Of a stretch of DNA of 64,000 bases, positions 6,774 to 56,549 are shown in pieces. The DNA comes from Quercus robur. Its lineage: Eukaryota; Streptophyta; Magnoliopsida; Fagales; Fagaceae. The notes beneath the pieces were generated by a model that did no database searches, was not told the DNA's origin, and worked only from the letters and a program-made list of their open reading frames with translations. Numbering within the stretch: the first letter of the stretch is position 1; the number at the start of each line of letters is the position of its first letter. The translations under genes and the position numbers were made by a program. The stretch covers positions 7,376,474-7,440,473 of the forward strand of contig NC_065536.1 of assembly GCF_932294415.1 (NCBI RefSeq), given 5' to 3'.

Positions 6774-8267
6774 ATGTCAAACTCAATGGGAGGATTTATT
6801 GACATGTTGCCAAGAGATTGTGTATCCAAAATTCTTTCTTTCACCTCTCCTGCAGACACATTCAGATCTTCAATGGTGTCATCCATGTTTCATTCTGCGG
6901 CGGAGTCTGATGTTGTTTGGGAGATGTTCTTGCCAACTGATTATATGGATGTTGTGTCAAGGCTGATCACTCCTTTGACATTTACTACGAAGAAGGAGCT
7001 TTTTGTCTGTCTGTGCAATCCTGTTCTCATAGATGTTGGTAGAAAGGTAGGTTTCAAATGATTTCCAAACTCTCCCTTAAACGTTTCTCATGCATATAGT
7101 ATTGACACGTTAGGTAAATAAGTTACTTGATAGAATTAGTTCCCACAAGTATATTCTATTAATTAAATTGATAAAGTATTTTTCTATCGAACAAGTAACT
7201 TAGAATTGAATTCCACGTACACCAAAAATATAAAAAAATCATATCTTGTTCTTATGGTAAAAAAGTCATAGTTATTACGAATTCTTTGATAACAGATAGA
7301 TTAACTTAAAAATTGATTCAACATCACATGGCATAGTTAATTCATTTTTATTTTTTGTTTTATATTCCCAAAAACGCAGAGCTTAAAGTTAGAGAAATCA
7401 TCTGGCAAAATATCATATATGTTGTCAGCAAGAGAACTTTCTATAACATGGAGCAATGATCCAATGCAATGGAGTTGGAAATCAATACCTCAATCAAGGT
7501 TACTTTTTTCATGTTCTTTAAAATCACCTAGAAATTTATAGTATAAGAGTATGATACATATTGTTCTACATGGTAACTTCAATTTTTTCACTATTTATTA
7601 TAGTGACAAATTTTAATCGAAACGTCTTGTCCATTTGGGCCCATAATTGACCCTACTTATATTATGCACTAATTATAATAGAGTATATTGATGGTATGAA
7701 ATTTTTTGTGTTATTAGATTTATTAATTGTTTCATATGATTGGACAAAAAAAAGAGAGGAAAATGAACTAACCAAATCTTTCAACTTTTTCAAATTTTCT
7801 TCCATAGGTTCTCAGAAGTGGCTGAGCTTAGAACAACTTGTTGGTTAGAAATTCATGGCAAAATTAGAACTCAAATTTTATCACCAAACACAAGATATGG
7901 TGCTTATCTTATAATGAAAATTTCTAATCGTGCATATGGGCTCGATTCAATACCGTCTGAAGTGTCAGTTGAGGTGGGCAATGAAGTATGTCATGACATG
8001 ACTTATCTACGTCATGAAGATAGAAAGAAGCAACAAATGGAGTGCATGTTTTATAGGAACCGTACAGAAGTGTTGAGTAAGAGAGTGATAGAGGGCACTG
8101 AAGGAATTTCAAATGAAAGAAAAGATGGATGGATGGAAATTGAGCTGGGAGAATTTTTTAGTGGTGAAGCTAACGAAGAAGTGAAGATGAGTTTGATGGA
8201 GGTTAAGGGTTATCAATTAAAAGGAGGAATCATAATTGAAGGAATTGAAGTAAGGCCTATACATTAA
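6774..8267 (+). CDS. F-box protein with PP2 (phloem protein 2-like) domain, 3 exons, 283 aa
   Basis: The exons are 6774-7046, 7380-7498 and 7808-8267 (852 nt, GT/AG at each joint, frame kept). Residues 11-52 form the F-box (MLPRDCVSKILSFTSPADTF and following), which in known proteins binds SKP1 in an SCF ubiquitin ligase. From about residue 92 the protein follows the PP2-B pattern: a KSGK-like KLEKSSGKISYMLSARELSI, then WSNDPMQWSWKSIP, then TTCWLEIHGKI, and a C-terminal EVKGYQLKGGIIIEGIEVRP. PP2 domains are lectin-like; the target or ligand cannot be read from the sequence. The ATG at 6774 is the first in frame after an upstream non-ATG stretch. An intact paralogue lies at 20079-21794. Length and domain order are normal for Arabidopsis PP2-B-type F-box proteins. 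Confidence 0.9.
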
Positions 8268-12019: not shown

Positions 12020-14564
12020 CCATAAGGATCTTAAGCTAGAATTGCAAAGGTTTGGGCAATCCCTTTACAATTTTTCAATGTCAACAAAAAGCCCGCGACT
12101 ATAAATTTGATTTTATGTTTCTTATGGAAACCAAATTAGTTCAAGGGAAGGGTAGAGATATTTGGCATAGATGTGGTTTCACTGATGGTTGGGAGGTTCC
12201 TAGAGTGGGTCTTAGTGGGGGGCTGCTCCTTGCTTGGATGCCTAGGCAAAGTGTTAGTATTATTTTTGAGTCTACTCACCTTATCCATATCAACTTCTTG
12301 GATAATAAAGGTTTACCTACTTCTATCACTTTTGTTTATGGTCACCCTAAGCTAGCTAGGAGGGCAGAAGTTTGGCATCAGCTATTAGCTTTTAAAACTA
12401 AAGCACACCCCCAATGGATTTGCATTGGGGATTTTAATCAGATCCTAACTAGGGAGGAGAAATTCTCTTTCACACAGGGGAGTATTGCTTGTGCCAATTT
12501 CCTTCAACAAGTTATTTTTGTACCGAACTTATGTAGCTTGTCTGCCTCTGGACAAAGGTACACCTGGATGAACAATAGAGATGATACTAACTTGTTATGG
12601 AAAGATTAGATAGGGCTTTTGCAAGTATTGATTGGCTTAATCAATACCCTTCCTACTCTCTGAGGAATCTGCCTATTGTTCGATCGAATCATGGCCCTAT
12701 TATCCTGGATTTTGATAACCTTACTCCTTTTAGGAAAAGGCCCTTTAGGTTTGAGCATATGTGGACTACTCATCCTTCATGCAAAAACATGGTCCAATAG
12801 GCTTGGCTATTTCAGTCTCATGGGTCTAGAGCTGAACAATTATGGAAAAAACTTCTTAAAGTTAAAAAGATAGCTTTGGCTTGGAATAAGCAGGTGTTTG
12901 GGAAAGTTGAGAGAGTTATTAGACTGAAACAAGACCAATTGCAACAAATTCAAAATTCCATTTCAACAATTGAGGATGTTAGGTTGGAAAGATGTCTTAG
13001 GAATGATTTAGAAGAGCTTCTAAACAGAGAAGAGTTGATGTGGGCCCAGAAGGCAAGATCAAATTGGATTCTCCAAGGGGACAGGAACACTAAGTTCTTT
13101 CAGACTGTGGTTGGACAAAGAAGGGCTCGAAATAGAATCATACAAATCAAGAATGATCTTGGGTGCTTTACTGAAAATTCTAATGAAATTGAGGCCATCT
13201 TCACTAATCACTTTAGGTCTTGCTTTCAGAATTCAATTCAGTTAAGTTTTGATAGCATTGTTAAGGAACTTCAATCCCTCCCTATTCCTTCTCTCTCCCC
13301 TCAACAACTTGCTTCCCTCAACAAACCCATTACTGCTTCAGAGATTGAAGAATCTATTTTTCAAATTGGTGCCCACAAAACTCTTGGGCCTGATGGCATT
13401 CCTGCTTTTTTCTTCCATAAATATTGGGGCACTATCAAAACTGAAGTTATTAGTACTGTCTTAGCCTTCTTTCATTCAGGTTCTTTGTTTAAACCCCTCA
13501 ATCAAACTTTTATTACTCTCATTCCTAAAATACCTTTTCTAGAAGAGGTTTCTCATTTCAGACCTATTAGCCTCTGTAATGTTGTTTACAAAATCATCTA
13601 TAAGGTTTTGGTTAATAGGTTGAAGCCCCTGATGGATAGCATTATCGCCCCTTACCAGAATTCTTTCATTAAAGGGAGAAACATTTCTGATAACATCCTC
13701 ATCTCCCTTGAGATCATTGATACACTAAGAAGGGAAAAAGGGAGGAAGACCAATTTTGGAATGCTCAAGATTGATATGAGCGAAGCTTATGATAGGGTAA
13801 ATTGGACCTTCCTTAAGGCTGTCTTAACAGTAATGAAATTTGAGGACAAGTGGATTAAATGGATCATGGAATGTGTCACTACAGTTAGCTACACAATCCT
13901 TGTCAATGGCAATCTGACTTCTTCCTTTAAACCCTCCCAAGGGTTAAGACAGGGAGACCCTCTTTCACCCTATCTATTCCTTTTCTACGCAAACATCCTT
14001 TCTATCTCCCTATCTCAGGCACAGAACCTTAAGCAGATTCAGGGTGTGAAGGTTGGTAGAAATGGACTCTCCTTTACTCACCTCTTCTTTGCCAACGACT
14101 CACTTCTTTTCTTCAAGAAGGATAACAAGACTATTAAGAACTTGCAACTTATCCTGGATTGGTATTGTTCCATTTCTGGTCAGAAAATAAACCTTGCCAA
14201 ATCAGACTTGTATTGTTCTCCCAATATGCATGTTGAAGATCAGGAAAGCCTTGCTCAAACCCTTCAAGTTAATCTGGTCCAAAATCCAACCAAATACCTT
14301 GGAATGCACTTTAAGCTCAAAGGTAATAGATGCATTGATTTCCAATTTGTGGTGGACAAACTCCAAGCTAAACTCCAAAGTTGGAAGGCAAGATTGCTCT
14401 CCCAAGTTGGCAGAACTACCCTTATTACCTTTGTCCTTCAATCTTTGCCTCTATATACCTTTGCTTGCTTTCAGGTTCCTGATACCATTTGTAACAAAAT
14501 GGATTCTATCATTAGATCCTTCTGGTGGGGCATGAGCAAGGAGAGAGGAAACTGCATCTGCTAA
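12020..14564 (+). pseudogene. LINE ORF2: endonuclease and reverse transcriptase, catalytic Asp changed
   Basis: The endonuclease part (about 12025-12800) shows GLGNP, METKL, GLSGGLLLAW and IGDFNQIL in two frames; frame changes or stops occur near 12600 and 12800. From 12876 to 14564 the frame is open for 562 codons and holds the reverse transcriptase: GPDGIPAFFFHKYW, FRPISLCNVVYKI, KIDMSEAYDRVNW, GLRQGDPLSPYLF and the catalytic box FAND at about 14089. The family has F/YADD there; the first of the two Asp codons is AAC (Asn). This alone should abolish polymerisation. The first catalytic Asp, in KIDMSEAYD, is kept. Confidence 0.9.
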
Positions 14565-26345: not shown

Positions 26346-26539
26346 ACTACCCCAAAAATTTAGCTATACTTATCCAAACATCTATTGCTTAATTTGGTGT
26401 GCAAAGATGATAAACGGAATCTATTACAGCCCCCACAGGAGTATAGTAGCTAATTAGCAAATAAACTTAAATAACGATTCGTGCTTTAATAATGATTTCT
26501 TGATTATCAACGTGTATATATATATATATATATTGGTGA

Positions 26540-26722
26540 TTTTGTCATTTTTTTAGACTAATTTAATACTTAACACAAATTAGGACTTTGAAGGGTTTCC
26601 GTTCTCCAATATGTCCTAAAATTTTTGGTGATTTTGTCATTTTTTTAGACTAATTTAATACTTAACACAAATTAGGACTTTGAAGGGTTTCCTAAGGTTC
26701 TCCAATATGTCCTAAAATTTCT
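26540..26722. repeat. Tandem duplication, unit about 91 bp
   Basis: Two successive units share tttggtgattttgtcatttt, then actaatttaatacttaacac, and end with ttctccaatatgtcctaaaa. A third, diverged unit is at about 28985-29072, directly before the PIF element. This suggests that 26.54-28.05 kb and 28.98-30.80 kb are two copies of a larger block. Confidence 0.8.
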
Positions 26723-30947: not shown

Positions 30948-32119
30948 CTAAGGAAGTTTGATTTTGACCTTCCCATACCCACACTTAATATTGTTTGGCG
31001 TTAACTTACTATCACTGCAATTATACAGAAATTTGGATTTGTCGAAACAGAAGTATATCCGGAACAATCGATTACTTCCATTTCTTTGGTAGCATTCCAG
31101 CTTCGGGATGAATCCAGTGGCTTTAATAATCTTTTGTTGGAGATCCTTATACAAATGAGATGTACCAGGGCAAATGCCTGTTTCGAAAAAGGGATTGAAA
31201 AATCCAAGTTAGCTTTCTTCAATGATAAAAATTACAAAAAGTTATGGATAAAGTCTCTATATAATATAAAACTATAGTATACTAACCTTCACTTTCAAGC
31301 TTTGGAGTCAGCCCTGGAATTTGATCCACCATCCAAGCAGTTGATTCGAAATACTGCTCTTGTGTTGGGAAGAAGCAAGAGCCATGCTTTTCAAATTCCT
31401 GTTTCCAATAGTTATAATTTGGTTTATTTATTATTAGGTTCGGCCAAAAATCATTCAACTTGTGCACGAGATGTCCATCTTCGTAGTGTTCCAGCTGCAC
31501 ACAAAAAAAAGGACAATATTAATAAAGGCTAAACCACGTAAATAATAATAACAAAAATGACTTTTATATGTTTACGTTGTAGATGCATAAAAAGTAATAT
31601 ATTTATAAAAAGTGTACAATATTTACTACTTTTTGTAAATATATACCACATTAATTATTTTTTGTGTTTCTATAATCTAAAGAAGAATTTCTCTAACAAA
31701 TTACAAAATAATGAATGTATGAAGATAACAAAAACATGCATGATTGTTGAAATGATTTGACAAACATATTATACCTTTGGAAAGTTAAAGGGAGCAGTAT
31801 TTTTAGCTCCTTTGCAATCAATGAGTCCACCACTAGTATTTTGCGGCCATAGACCGTGCACAATGAATCGGTCAGGTATCTGCGGCCAACATGAAACTGT
31901 GCCGCTGGTGCAGAATGATTTTGGCCACCGAAAGACCAAGTAAAAATAATCAAAATGCTTCAATTTGCTGTTGATTACAGTTTCAGCATTCATATTTTCT
32001 TTATAAGGCAGCTGAGTATTGTTGTATATAATACTCTCAGTTTGATAAGCCCTGCCATGGCTGTGGACCGCCCACATCACCAAAACCAAAAAAAAAACAT
32101 GAAACACTGTCATTTTCAT
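30948..32119 (-). CDS. T2-family ribonuclease, secreted, S-RNase-like, 3 exons, 260 aa
   Basis: The exons are 32119-31775, 31494-31287 and 31177-30948 (783 nt, GT/AG at both introns, frame kept, TAG stop). The first 22 or so residues form a signal peptide (MKMTVFHVFFLVLVMWAVHS), so the enzyme enters the secretory route. The first active-site motif is FIVHGLWPQ (catalytic His). The second is WKQEFEKHGSC (Glu, Lys, His). The Cys pattern of the T2 fold is present (FCTSG, SCWPQ, DCKG, HGSC, GICPG, ECYQ, FCFD, NCSD, KCGYG). The reaction of this family is endonucleolytic RNA cleavage through a 2',3'-cyclic phosphate. By my count the mature part has 28 Lys/Arg and 21 Asp/Glu, so it is basic; this and the low intron number fit the class III (S-RNase) lineage better than acidic S-like RNases. 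Function in self-incompatibility is not shown. Six broken relatives surround it. Confidence 0.88.
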
Positions 32120-32163
32120 GCTTTCTAAAACGACACTAGACCACAAAACCCTGCGAGTTCAAC

Positions 32164-39200: not shown

Positions 39201-39257
39201 TTGATCCAAACCCACGTTTGCGTTTTTTTTTCTCCTTTTTATAAAGACCAGCGCTGG

Positions 39258-42156
39258 TAGGGATGGCCATGGGTAGGGTATGGGTAGGGTATACCCATAC
39301 CCAACCCAATTAATTTATCCATAGATATCCAATTACCTTACCCAATTAGTATCCATACCCAATTGTTACCTAGTTTGTTTACCCATGGATATCCATACCC
39401 TATCCAAACCCAATTTTTATAAAATCACCAAATATGCTCAAAAATCACTAAAAAGACCAAAATATTCTCAAAATCTCTAAAATGAGCCAAATACCCATGA
39501 AACCTCTAAAATGGCCAAAATACTCCTGATTCTCTAAAATCACCAATTATGCTCAAAAACCACTAAAATGACCAAAATATCTCAAAATCTCTAAAATGAG
39601 CAAAATACCCATTAAATCTCTAAAATGACCAATATACCCCCAAAATTACCAAATATGCTCAAAAACTACTTAAAATTACCAAAATACCCCCTAAATCTAA
39701 AAAAATGACAAAATACCCCCGAAACCTAAAAAATGACTAAATACCCACGAAACCTAAAAATGTCCAAAATACCCCCGAAACCCAAAAATTATCAAAAATA
39801 CCCCCTAAACCTAAAAAATGACCGAAATACCCCCGAAACCTAAAATTTGACTGAAATAGCCCAGAAACTTAAAAATTACCAAAATACCCCCGAAACCTAA
39901 AAAATGACCGAAATAACTCCTAAACCTAAAAAATGACTGAAATATCCCCGAAACCTAAAAACTTACTAAAACACCGCTGAAACTTGAAAATTACCAAAAT
40001 ACCCTTGAAACCTAAAAATTGACCGAAATACTCCGTAAACCTGAAAAATGACCAAAATACCCCCGAAATCTATAAAATGACAAAAATGCCCCTAAAACCT
40101 ATAAAATGTCTAAAATACCCTCAAACCTATAAAATGACCAAAATAAGCCCTAAACTTGTAAAATGATCAAATATGCCCAAAACCTCTAAAATGACCAAAA
40201 ATAACCCCAAACCTCTAAAATTACCAAAAATACCCCGAAACCTATAAATCGACCAAAATAGCCCTAAACCTCTAAAACAACCAAATACCCCCAGAAAATA
40301 TCTAAAATGACCAAAACACCCTTGAAAACTTTAAAGTGACTAAAGTACCCCTTAACCTATAAATGACCAAAATACATTTGTAACCTTTTAAATTACGAAA
40401 ATAGAGGTTTGGGGTATTTTGGATGTTTCAAGGGTATTTTTGTCAAGATTAAAGGTTTTAAGAATATTTCAGTCATTTTTTAGGTTTTGAGGGAATTATG
40501 GTAATTTTTTTTGTTTCGGGGTTATTTTGGTCATTTTTTTAGATTCTAAGGGCATTTCAGTCATTTTTTAGATTACGGGGGAATTTTTTTTTCATTTTTT
40601 AGGTTTTAGGGGTATTTCGGTAATTTTTATATTTTGGGGCTATTTTGTTAATTTTATAGATTTCGGAGGTATTTTGGTAATTTCAAGGTTTCAGGGGTAA
40701 TTTTTTATGTTTCAGGGGTATTTTGGTCATTTTTTAGGTTTTGGGGGTATTTTGGTTATTCTTTAAGCTTTGGGGGTATTTCAGTTATTTTTTAGGTTTT
40801 GGGATCTTTTGGTCATTTTTTAGGTTTCGAAGTTATTTCAGTCATTTTTTAGGGTTGGGTGTATTTTTATCATCTTATAGGTTTTAGGGGCATTTTTGTC
40901 ATTTTATAGGTTTCGGGGTATTTTGGTAATTTTATAGGTCTCAAGAGTATTTCGGTCATTTTTTAGATTTAGGGGGGTATTTCAGTAATTTTTTTTATGT
41001 TTCGAGGGTATTTGGTCATTTTTTAGGTTTTGAGGGTATTTTGGTAATTTTTAGGTTTCGGGGGGTATTTTGGTCATTTTTTAGGTTTCAGTGGCCTTTC
41101 AGTCATTTTTTAGGTTTAGGGGTTATTTTGGTAATTTTTAGTTTCGGGGGTATTTTGGTCATTTTTAGGTTTCGTGGGTGTTTCAATCATTTTTTTTAAT
41201 GTTTCGGGGGTTTTTTGCTAATTTTTAAGTTTCGGAGGTATTTCGGTCATTTTTTAGGTTTAGAGAGTATTTCGGTAATTTTTTATATTTTGAGGGTATT
41301 TCGGTCATTTTTTAGGTTTAGAGGGTATTTTGGTAATTTTTAGGTTTCAGTGGTCTTTTGGTCATTTTTTAGGTTTATGGGGTATTTTTTGGTAATTTTT
41401 AGTTTTCGGGGGTATTTTGGTCATATTTTAGGTTTTGGGGGTGTTTCGGTCATTTTTTTTTATGTTTCGGGGATATTTTGGTCATTTTTTAGGTTTGGAG
41501 TGCATTTCGGCAATTTTAGAGGATTTTATGAATAATTTGGTCATTTTTTTTGCTAATTTTTAAGTTTCGGAGGTATTTCGGTCATTTTTTAGGTTTAGAG
41601 AGTATTTCGGTAATTTTTTATATTTTGAGGGTATTTCAGTCATTTTTTAGGTTTAGAGGGTATTTTGGTAATTTTTAGGTTTCAGTGGTCTTTTGGTCAT
41701 TTTTTAGGTTTATGGGGTATTTTGGTAATTTTTAGTTTTCGGGGGTATTTTGGTCATATTTTAGGTTTTGGGGGTGTTTCGGTCATTTTTTTTATGTTTC
41801 GGAGATATTTTGGTCATTTTTTAGGTTTGGAGTGCATTTCGGCAATTTTAGAGGATTTTATGAATAATTTGGTCATTTTCAAGTTTTAGGGGCAATTTGG
41901 TAATTTTGATTATTGGTTAATTGGGTGGGTTGAGGTTTACCCATAATAATTTGGTTGAGTTTGGTTTGAGTTAGATCTAATTAGTTAAATGGGTAATAAT
42001 GGGTAAATGGATAATATCCAAACCCTACCCAAAATATTTGGATAATATCTAAACCCTACCCAATTACCTTCTACCCATTAAGAACTGGGTATTACCCAGA
42101 ATAATTGGATCGGGTAGGGTTGGATATCCATTACCTAATGGGTATGGCCATCCCTA
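39258..42156. mobile_element. 2.9-kb hAT-type foldback element made of inverted arrays of degenerate short repeats
   Basis: The termini are tagggatggccat and atggccatcccta, a perfect 13-bp inverted repeat. The 8-bp agcgctgg flanks both sides (39250-39257 and 42157-42164). Both features fit hAT. Within about 150 bp of each end are stacked copies of acccata/tggatatcca-type motifs. The core has two arms. From about 39410 to 40395 a unit of about 20 bp recurs (cctaaaaaatgaccgaaata with cccccgaaa). From about 40400 to 41890 its reverse complement recurs (tattttggtcattttttagg with tttcggggg). The switch is sharp, near 40395. No transposase is present. Frames seen here are produced by the repeat and are not genes. 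Confidence 0.88.
41217..41886. repeat. About 335-bp direct tandem duplication in the right arm
   Basis: The segment starting gctaatttttaagtttcgg at 41217 starts again at 41552 and both run on to gaggattttatgaataattt with only a few differences. It makes the right arm longer than the left and is younger than the arm itself. Confidence 0.85.
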
Positions 42157-42329
42157 AGCGCTGGTATACTGTTCATGAGACATGACATGAACAGTATATC
42201 AAAAATATAAAAAAATAATAATAATGAATAGTAATTTTTTACACATTTAAAAATTATTTTATTACAGTATTTTCAATTTTCAGTTTTCAGTTTCAGTAAA
42301 AATAAATTATATTCAAACGGACTCTGAGC

Positions 42330-53069: not shown

Positions 53070-56000
53070 CCCCTCAAACTCAAGATGAATGTGAGACCAA
53101 CTTAAGGTTGTCAACCAAATTACGAAGACATCCCTTAGGATGTGACTTGGTGAAGATATCTGCAAGTTGATCTTTAGAGGAGATTGAGATCAGCTTGAGA
53201 GCACCATGGACAAGATGATAACGGATAAAATGACAATCGATCTCGATGTGTTTAGTTCGTTCATGGAAGACATCATTGTGAGTAATATGAATGACACTCT
53301 AGTTGTCACAATAAAGAGGAGTGGCAGAGGATGTGGACACACCTAAGTCTTTGAGAAGCCATCGAAATCAAAGGAGCTCAGATGTGGTATTAGTAAGGGC
53401 ACGATATTCTGCTTCAGTACTAGAGAGGGTCACATGAGTTTGTTTCTTGCTTCGCCAAGAGATCAATGAAGAACCAAGAAAAAAGCAATAACCAGTGGTG
53501 GACCTACGATCAGTGGGATCTCCTGCTGAATCAGCATCAGAAAATGCACGGAGAATAATAGGAGACTGAGTAGAGTAGAAAAAGCCATAGAAGAGAGTGT
53601 CCATTAGGTATTGAAGAATGCGTAGAACAGCAGCATAGTAGTCGATCGTGGAACAGAAAAATACTGGCTCACCTGGTGAACAACATAGGAAATGTCTGGA
53701 CGAGTGATAGTGAGATAAACTAGGCTGCCAACCAAGCGTCTGTAAAGAGAGGGATTAGACAATGGTTTTCCTCCTATGGGAGTCAGATGCGCATTAAGTT
53801 CAACTGGAGTGTCAACAGTCTTGCTATCAGTGAGTCCAGCTTGAGACAATAGCTCAGAGGCATACTTGGCTTGAGTAATATAAAGTCCATCTGTAGAATG
53901 AGTGATTTCAAGACTCAAGAAGTAGTTGAGATATCCAAGATCTTTCATCTCAAATTACTGACTAAGAAAATCCTTGAGTTATTGAATGCCAATAAGGTCA
54001 TCACCAGTTATGATCATATCATCCACATATAGGAGAAGTAAAATAGTGCCTTTGTCAGTGCGACGAAAAAATAAGGTAGAATCATAATGACTGGTCATGT
54101 AACCCAAGCGAGAGATGGTATAGCTGAATTTGGCAAACCAAACTCGTGGAGCTTGTTTAAGGCCATAAAGTGCACGTCGAAGGTGATCAACAGAGAGACC
54201 AGGAGGAGGTTGTATGTAAACTTCTTCACTTAAATCTCCATTAAAGAATGCATTTTTGACATCCATCTAAAAAAGGTCACATTTACTGGCAGCAGCAACA
54301 ACTAAGAGGGCACGAACAGATGAGATACGAGCAACCGGAGCAAAAGTCTCTTCATAATCTATCCCATACTCCTGTGTAAAACATTTTGCAACAAGACGAG
54401 TTTTGTAGCGCTCAATGGACCCATTAGAGCGAGTCTTAATGTTGTAAATTCACTTACAACCAACCACAAATTTCCTAGGGGGGATAGTCACCAAGTCTCA
54501 AGTATGGTTTTTAGAGAATGCATCAAACTCCTCTTTCATTGCAATCTGCCATAAAGGGTCAGTGGAAGCCTCACGATAGGTGTGAGGCTCATGCAGTGTA
54601 GCAAGGGCAGTGTAACAATGATAGTCAAGTAAATGTGCAGGAATGGATCTTATCCGAGTTGAGTGATAAGGTGGAATGTCTTGTGCATGATCTTCAGGCG
54701 GAGCAGGAGCAGGGGACCCAAGCTCAGGGTTAGGTAGCTCGTCTTCAACCTGTTCATCTTCCACTTGTTCATTAAAGGGTGAACTAGGAAAGGGATCAAG
54801 GATATCCGATGGTTGGACAGAGAAGTCTACAAGAGAATTAGGTGCAACTACAGGAGGATCAGGAGCAGCTACAGAAGGAATATGTGCCTCATCTGGAAAA
54901 AAATCTAAAATAGAGGAGGAAGATAGGGAGGCACGGAAGTGAGAGAGCTCGACAAAGAGTCGATGTTCCCAAAAGATAACATTGCGGGAAATACGAAGAC
55001 GATGAGAGACAGGATCATAACACCGATACCCCTTTTGAGTTTCGCCATAGCCAAGAAAACAACAAAGCCTTGATCGAGACTCAAGTTTGTTATGTTCATG
55101 TGGCTGAAGAAGAACAAAACAAGCAAAACCGAAGGAGCGAAGGTGGTGATAGTCTGAAGGTGACCCAAAAAGACGCTCATATGGAGTTTGATTTTGGATA
55201 ACAGGACTCGGAATGCCATTAATAGTATGAATAGCATGAAGAGCAGCTTCGCCCTAAAAAGGAGCAGGAACTTTGGTAGAGAGAAGAAGAGCACGAACAG
55301 TGTCATGAATATGACGAAGTTTTCGTTCGGCTCTACCATTTTGCTGAGAGATACCTGGAAGAGTTAGTTAATGAACAGTGCCATAGGAATGCAAAATAGT
55401 TTGGAAAGCATACTGAGTGTATTCAAGAGCATTATCAGATCGAAAAATTTTGATGCGTTTGGAAAACTGAGTTTCAACCATTTTTGCAAAATTAAAATAT
55501 ACTTGAAATAATTCAAAACGATATTTCATATTAAAAATCCAGTTATAGCGAAAGTAATCATCAACAAAGATAACAAAATATCGAGACCCACCAATACTAA
55601 AGACAGAGGAAGGCCCCCAAACATCAGAATGAATAAGGTCAAAGATATCAGTGGATATTGATTCACTAGTATTGAAAGGCAAAACTGGTTGTTTTCCTAA
55701 TTGGCTCGAAACACAATCAAAATTTTCGATAGACACTGAACCTAACAAACCTCTAGAAACCAATTGTTGTACCCGAGAGGAAGATGCGTGACCAAGTCGA
55801 GCATGCCAAAGAGTAAGGGAAGGATTTGAGGAAACTATAGCAGCTGCAGCAACAAAAACAGGAGCAACAAGTGGAAGATGAAAGTTGTCCATGGGAAACA
55901 TATGCCCAACTCTAGGACCAGTCCCAAGCTCCTGTCCTGTCCTCGAATTTTGCACAATACACCCAAAATAATCAAATATAATGCAATAACCTAACTCAAC

Positions 56001-56549
56001 TAATTGTCCCACAGAAAATAAATTGTAAGAAAGGTCAAGAACATTAAAGACCCCAGGAACTGAAAGGTTGGAGGTCGAAACAAAACCTATATTATGACCA
56101 GACATTGTGGAACCATTTGTTGTGCGAATATTAAGAGGGTGTGGTGCAAGTTTGAGTTCAGAAAATAAGGACGAGTGAGGTGTCATGTGATTGCAACAAG
56201 CGGAATCCATAAGCCAAGAGGAAGGAGACATACCAGATAAAACTGAGAGAGAAGAGGAATAAGATGCATTACCAACCATACGAATGACATTGACGATGAT
56301 GTTTTTAAGGTCATCTGTGGACATGGTGAAAGTGTGTTTTGAAGACTTAGACTGTGTAGAGGCGGGAGCCATTGGTTGGACACTCTCAGTGTTAGCAACA
56401 GTAGCAGCAGAAATTGAAATAGCTGATTTGTTGCGATGATAGCAAGTCTCAATATTGTGGCCAAAATATTTGCAAAAATTGCAAAAACGTTTGCTGGATT
56501 CTCGACGACGATTATTGCAACAAGAAGAAGACCTGTCCTTATTCTTCAT
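53070..56549 (-). pseudogene. Copia polyprotein, frameshifted, gag capsid part missing
   Basis: Reading from 56549 downwards: zinc knuckle CNFCKYFGHNIETC; protease-like WLMDSACCNHMTP, where the family has D-S-G at the active site and this copy has D-S-A; GAG-pre-integrase LWHARLGHASSSRVQQL with one knuckle Cys changed (DCVSSQLGK); integrase core DLIHSDVWGPSSVF and IFRSDNALEY. A stop follows near 55366. The frame then changes to one whose readable part lies at about 55340-54780, then 54764-54498 and 54266-53979, with reverse transcriptase ([26 protein letters not shown] intact). RNase H is at 53604-53200 (AFSDADSAGDPTDRRSTTGY). Between the primer-binding site and 56549 (about 700 bp) I find no capsid domain. 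The element cannot be autonomous. Confidence 0.88.

Follow-up and report, generated by a model that had tools for sequence, protein, structure and literature searches.

A hAT foldback element of Quercus robur with ends and core matched by different families

How did two large, opposed arrays of a short tandem repeat come to lie between the ends of a hAT transposon in an oak? The element that raises this question occupies 2,899 bp (39258–42156) of the window, by which we mean the whole 64,000-nucleotide stretch analysed (Quercus robur, contig NC_065536.1, positions 7,376,474 to 7,440,473). We propose that it is a Ds2-like, non-autonomous hAT copy in which the ends of one family (B) enclose a foldback core matched by a second family (A), and that this combination has multiplied as a unit. 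We put the probability of this reading at roughly 0.83.

Ends and arrays of the window element

The element has perfect 13-bp terminal inverted repeats, with TAGGGATGGCCAT on the plus strand at 39258–39270 and its reverse complement at 42144–42156. It is flanked by identical copies (8/8 bp) of AGCGCTGG at 39250–39257 and 42157–42164, and the plus strand of the window has no further copy of this octamer. The hAT ends and 8-bp target duplication noticed in the preliminary description are thus borne out. The 18-bp end has 63 exact matches, the window's included, in the 786 Mb (42 contigs) that we searched for ends, centres and units; the reversed control has none. Forty of the 62 other sites were fetched and read. 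Target site duplications were perfect at 22 of these loci, as in the window copy, and had one mismatch at 6, two at 1 and three or more at 6; at 5 of the 40, no partner end lay within 6 kb (≤2 substitutions). One locus, L009, has the identical 18-bp left end and matches to zf-BED (E 3e-5), hAT-like_RNase-H (PF14372, 5e-27) and Dimer_Tnp_hAT (PF05699, 2.5e-10); its right end has lost the final few bases. We saw no intact autonomous element among the loci read, and of the 14 listed open reading frames of 120 aa or more in the window, none overlaps 39258–42156.

The 8-bp target site duplication and the short terminal repeats shared with a transposase-bearing relative place the window element in the hAT superfamily, as a non-autonomous member that is probably unable to move by itself. 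It also has the long inverted arms and internal tandem repeats of a foldback and, like Ds2, autonomous-type ends around unrelated filler. Mutator-type foldbacks have a 9-bp target site duplication and Mutator-type ends; the 8-bp duplication, the hAT-type ends and the hAT relative do not fit that class. MITEs are under about 800 bp, with uniform short copies, which the 2,899 bp of the window copy and the 1,967–2,899 bp of the foldback copies do not fit either.

Most of the interior consists of two arrays of one degenerate unit. The left arm (39420–40398, minus strand) holds about 34 degenerate units and is C-rich on the plus strand for about 980 bp; the right arm (40400–41925, plus strand) holds about 52 and is G-rich on the plus strand for about 1,530 bp. 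Motif matches fall 27 times on one strand and then 43 times on the other, without mixing. The orientation changes at about 40395–40401, with no spacer between the arms, and we treat 40395–40434 (plus strand) as the centre. The opposing arrays of about 1.0 and 1.5 kb and the sharp switch near 40395 in the preliminary description therefore stand. Its 20-bp repeat does not: the unit is about 29 bp, since autocorrelation peaks at 29, 57/58, 86/87 and 115 in both arms. Tandem Repeats Finder reports 29 among several periods. The G-rich unit is about TTTGGTCATTTTTTAGGTTTCGGGGGTAT, and a pattern search for it in viral contigs gave no match.

RNA from the element would form a long imperfect hairpin. 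The predicted minimum free energy is –1157 kcal/mol for the plus strand, against –680 to –722 for six dinucleotide shuffles, and –1061 kcal/mol for the minus strand, against –598 to –641 (also six shuffles). The predicted fold of either strand is thus far stronger than that of shuffled sequence, in line with the earlier suggestion of a very long hairpin.

What is the relationship between the two arms? They had been described as independent expansions of one unit, not as a simple inverted copy of each other. A simple mirror copy finds no support, as there is neither a consistent position match in 120-bp windows nor an order in the unit matches. Fully independent arms are not supported either: in each of four elements (the window copy, L041, L036 and L045), none of 200 unit-order shuffles reaches the whole-arm alignment. 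In 14 arm tests with 120-bp windows, matches to the other arm were significantly better than matches elsewhere in the same arm 3 times and worse once, with the remaining 10 tests showing neither; the correlation of match positions across arms was positive in 2 and negative in 1. Permissive pairwise arm identities did not discriminate.

The chances seem to us about even that the arms arose as an inverted duplication of one array that afterwards underwent turnover. Besides the whole-arm alignment, this is favoured by a unit similarity about as high between arms as within them, and by near-equal arms in the older copies L036 (1,008/1,011 bp with fixed trims; 994/950 bp measured by motif) and L045 (794/783 bp with fixed trims). 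Against it, when each unit is paired with its best match in the opposite arm, the order of the pairs is uncorrelated in all four elements, mirror position is inconsistent at the 120-bp scale, and an outer-to-inner gradient of unit types could yield the whole-arm signal. Because the shuffle, unit-order and 120-bp tests disagree, neither independent expansion nor a mirror copy is established.

Copies of the element and the relation of ends to core

Two-armed foldbacks are present at 9 of the 40 other loci with the B end, and L043 additionally shows a left arm only. Seven of the nine are 98.3–99.4% identical to the window copy; L036 is 88.8% and L045 83.7% identical. Each of the seven young copies has its own perfect 8-bp target duplication, L036 has no matching duplication, and that of L045 has one mismatch. 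The near-identity of the seven, together with their separate perfect duplications, points to a recent burst. With the window copy, the young copies form a star-like set of eight that has 3 shared polymorphic columns and 6–12 private changes per copy in seven of the eight (31 in L012). Eight near-identical star-like copies with their own duplications imply that the combined element multiplied as a unit. The 34-base sequence at the switch (40401–40434) has 120 matches in the genome at ≤3 mismatches, 14 of them exact, and a control has none. An exact B end lies within 1.5 kb of 11 of the 100 centres listed from these 120, and these 11 include 8 of the 14 exact centres. The genome-wide search that had been suggested as a check thus found a dispersed family, with 63 exact ends and 120 centres.

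Array length varies even among the young copies. The window copy alone of the eight has a 335-bp tandem duplication in the right arm (41211–41880, plus strand), whose copies at 41211–41545 and 41546–41880 are identical at 343 of 345 aligned bases, with small gaps. Five of the seven others measure 2,562–2,566 bp, L012 carries further blocks, one of about 173 bp and one of about 26 bp, and 28 bp are missing from L015. Block duplication or deletion would account for such later changes in array length. In a separate case, two 1,044-bp B-type elements in one region of contig C2 (L016 and L017) are identical over their length, lie in opposite orientation about 6.4 kb apart and have different target duplications.

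By sequence comparison, the window element is a mosaic, with ends from hAT family B and a core like that of elements with other hAT ends, family A. The left B end spans 39258–39417 (plus strand) and carries subterminal GGGTA/TACCC motifs; the right B end, which includes the terminal repeat, spans 42008–42156 (minus strand). Each of 26 non-foldback B elements with both ends has a longest match to the window element of 149–167 bp, and their interiors form several groups plus singletons. The end alignments cover the left end of all 26 and the right end of part of them.

The core has relatives elsewhere. Seven loci picked by the ATAGGGG variant of the switch (L049–L055) have the same arrays and switch and align at 80–85% identity to most of the stretch between the ends of L041, one of the young copies. 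None has a TAGGGATGGCCAT end at ≤2 mismatches; each has at least one terminus of the TAGGGGTGGCAAA type, exact or a variant judged by eye, and wherever the left end is in reach the left subterminal region differs from that of B. By eye, L050, an A-type locus with both ends read and non-repetitive flanks, has no matching target site duplication, and L055 has ATATATAT on both sides, yet within a TA run. As the core is also found with different hAT ends, it is not tied to TAGGGATGGCCAT.

The change from B-like to A-like sequence can be placed at two junctions. In sampled 50-bp windows, positions 1–170 and 2401–2564 of L041 match B elements better than A loci, and positions 161–290 and 2281–2430 match A loci better than B. 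End windows score 60–96 of 100 against B elements and 29–43 against A loci; core windows beside both ends score 60–84 against A and 30–41 against B. These windows covered the ends and the adjacent core, and the middle of the core is linked to A through the 80–85% alignment. In the window copy, the right junction lies at 42007–42010, where A and B have TGG or ATGG (3–4 bases) in common. The left junction, near 39412–39420, is less sharp, and the L041 window that spans it ties at 40 against A and B. The inner right subterminal stretch (41926–42010, plus strand) matches the TAGGGGTGGCAAA foldback family; because this stretch of the window element is of the A type, we take A to be the core donor. 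In a tree of the cores, from which L045 was left out as its centre was not recognised, a branch with 100/100 support has all 9 B cores on the same side. A single combination event that predates the divergence of L036 would be consistent with this. Because only 3 of the 13 inner branches are well supported and the tree is rooted at the midpoint alone, the direction of the exchange, an A core into B ends, is a probable one.

Could this be one family with fast-evolving ends, in which the A and B types drifted apart after descent from the same foldback ancestor and no exchange occurred? The A and B terminal repeats are related, as TAGGGATGGCCAT and TAGGGGTGGCAAA have 10 of 13 bases in common, and the A and B cores split along a single tree branch. 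However, the B ends of the foldback are close to those of non-foldback B elements and far from the A loci in the end windows given above, and the preference switches at both junctions, which makes divergence alone unlikely. We consider this explanation improbable, and the combination of B ends with an A-matched core remains our preferred reading.

Movement, silencing and wider distribution of the array

For this mosaic, we suggest that B ends took up the core a single time, probably through a template switch while a gap was being repaired, with the TGG/ATGG shared at the right junction providing microhomology for the switch. A B-type transposase would then act in trans on the B ends and move the whole element by cut and paste. 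Read-through transcription would give a long imperfect hairpin, which could in turn attract host silencing.

Is there a trace of such silencing? Private transitions in the eight young copies number 8 at 72 CG sites, 8 at 70 CHG sites and 33 at 699 CHH sites, against 12 at 1,723 A/T sites. Of five non-foldback pairs, three have CG changes that are higher in number and share, or nearly as high, one has a similar small number and one shows no change whatsoever. The excess of transitions at C/G also occurs in non-foldback pairs, so cytosine transitions do not point to hairpin-specific silencing, and we dropped a methylation signature as evidence for it. A related idea is that the host retains the locus as a functional source of hairpin-derived small RNAs. 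Although the predicted fold is much stronger than that of the shuffles, dispersed star-like copies resemble ordinary amplification and the cytosine excess is shared with non-foldback pairs; we regard host retention as very unlikely.

The exact 34-base unit has 37 matches in the genome and its control none. Thirteen are no more than 3 kb from one of the listed centres (100 of 120 listed) and 24 lie farther away, of which three (L056–L058) were read. In these three, the array adjoins a terminus, TAGGGGTGGCAATTTTTATCC or a close variant, in the same polarity, which makes this a third end type. A single arm lies inside each fetched stretch, so that they are known there as one-armed arrays only. 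By eye, array pieces in L056 (1–1930) alternate with an LTR-like block that seems to be present twice, first at the left edge and again at about 840–1760.

The preliminary description had named as the contrary outcome an unrelated satellite that exists without hAT ends. Instead, at least one hAT-type terminus is adjacent to the array at 21 of 21 array loci, some of these termini being variants judged by eye; the count is biased, as it comprises the window copy, 10 loci picked by end, 7 by centre and 3 by unit alone. That the array is a satellite of 29-bp units, invaded or adjoined by chance by hAT ends, is mostly refuted and extremely unlikely: the unit does occur beside two further end types and, in 24 of 37 exact matches, away from listed centres, but all 21 arrays have a hAT-type terminus alongside, dispersed copies with different target site duplications keep an identical centre, arm order and ends, and a 19-mer of the unit is matched nowhere else in the window, while the 221.5 kb of fetched sequence that excludes two-armed B foldbacks contains 7 matches, of which the one-armed L043 accounts for 6.

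One of five copies scanned, L051, suggests that the arms themselves rearrange. Its outermost left arm matches the right arms of other copies and vice versa, and the centre-proximal parts keep their own side. It is the most diverged A copy and has a right-arm stretch matching neither arm. From these matches its centre looks flipped, an arrangement that recombination between the arms would produce by inverting the middle.

Do the arrays also serve transposition? BED domains of the Hermes hAT transposase bind subterminal repeats of the left end, according to the portion of PMC10368747 drawn on here. By analogy, GGGTA/TACCC is a likely counterpart of those repeats: GGGTA is the most end-specific 5-mer, with 457 occurrences in 52 ends, 60.7-fold over interiors. 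The L041 arrays contain it 33 times, compared with a mean of 8.4 and a maximum of 15 in shuffles; the other end 5-mers CTACC, ACCCG and CATAC are absent from these arrays. These counts argue weakly for docking sites in the arrays, because a tandem unit raises any 5-mer and the other end 5-mers are absent, and GGGTA within the 29-bp unit may be there by chance. We can imagine the array as a mobile cassette that three or more related hAT end types of this genome have exchanged. Its unit motif GGGTA/ATACC, which also marks these transposon ends, would offer dozens of extra docking sites for transposase, and the opposed arms would let the centre flip and arm length change; both properties may explain its persistence. 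We think this proposal doubtful.

Known systems and surrounding sequence

Several known systems resemble the oak element; the comparisons draw on portions of the cited papers. Maize Ds2 of the Ac/Ds system (PMC3260210) likewise has autonomous-type ends around unrelated filler and an 8-bp target site duplication. Its ends are about 200 bp and it is mobilised in trans; the B ends are about 150–160 bp and enclose several interiors. Unlike in Ds2 as covered there, the filler in oak would be a foldback core that belongs to a second hAT family, and the mosaic was then amplified into many near-identical copies. Pack-TIR elements (PMC8277862) are similar in that outside sequence is captured between hAT or other ends, for which template switching with microhomology has been proposed. 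The captured pieces in that account are gene-derived (e.g. 5ʹ UTR), whereas here a foldback core is involved.

Among foldbacks, Tetris of Drosophila virilis (PMC4079207) is also non-autonomous, with tandem repeats in inverted arms, target site duplications of 8–10 bp and ends in common with a different short element. The Tetris repeats described there measure about 220 bp, just 3 copies are structurally complete, and no autonomous partner was found. In contrast, the oak element is built of 29-bp units, its centre has 120 matches, and one of its relatives bears transposase domains. The same source notes that most foldbacks seem to be Mutator members, with exceptions. Galileo of Drosophila (PMC4168063) shares long inverted arms and strong length variation among copies; it belongs to the P superfamily, and the portion used here gives direct tandem repeats, of about 140 bp, in one copy from D. 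willistoni. A plant hAT foldback with such arrays did not appear in the open-access titles and abstract openings that we searched, and it may be catalogued as a repeat. One plant genome thus offers recent near-identical hAT copies, older relatives, a transposase relative, the core with other ends and an apparently flipped centre. Hence, this set makes it possible to test directly for exchange of ends, for changes in arm length and for inversion between arms.

The surroundings of the insertion contain further features. To its left there are open frames, none convincing by eye as a gene beside the insertion. A 92-bp tandem repeat in two copies (26533–26720) contains GATTTTGTCATTTTTTTAGA, which resembles the foldback unit; the 19-mer of the unit has no match there at 3 mismatches. 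A Phloem protein 2 domain exon lies at 7818–8264 (PF14299, E 3.1e-38), and the start of a ribonuclease T2 gene, which we take to be S-RNase-like, at 31772–32146 on the minus strand (PF00445, E 1.3e-8). The window also holds a reverse transcriptase fragment that probably derives from a LINE and has open frames to its left and right (12876–14561; PF00078, E 1.7e-33), and a probable copia-type fragment on the minus strand at 55371–56549, with Pol_BBD, gag_pre-integrs and an integrase match below the cut-off. Directly to the right of the insertion, at 42165–42198, a short palindrome with 13-bp arms (TATACTGTTCATG ... CATGAACAGTATA) is visible by eye.
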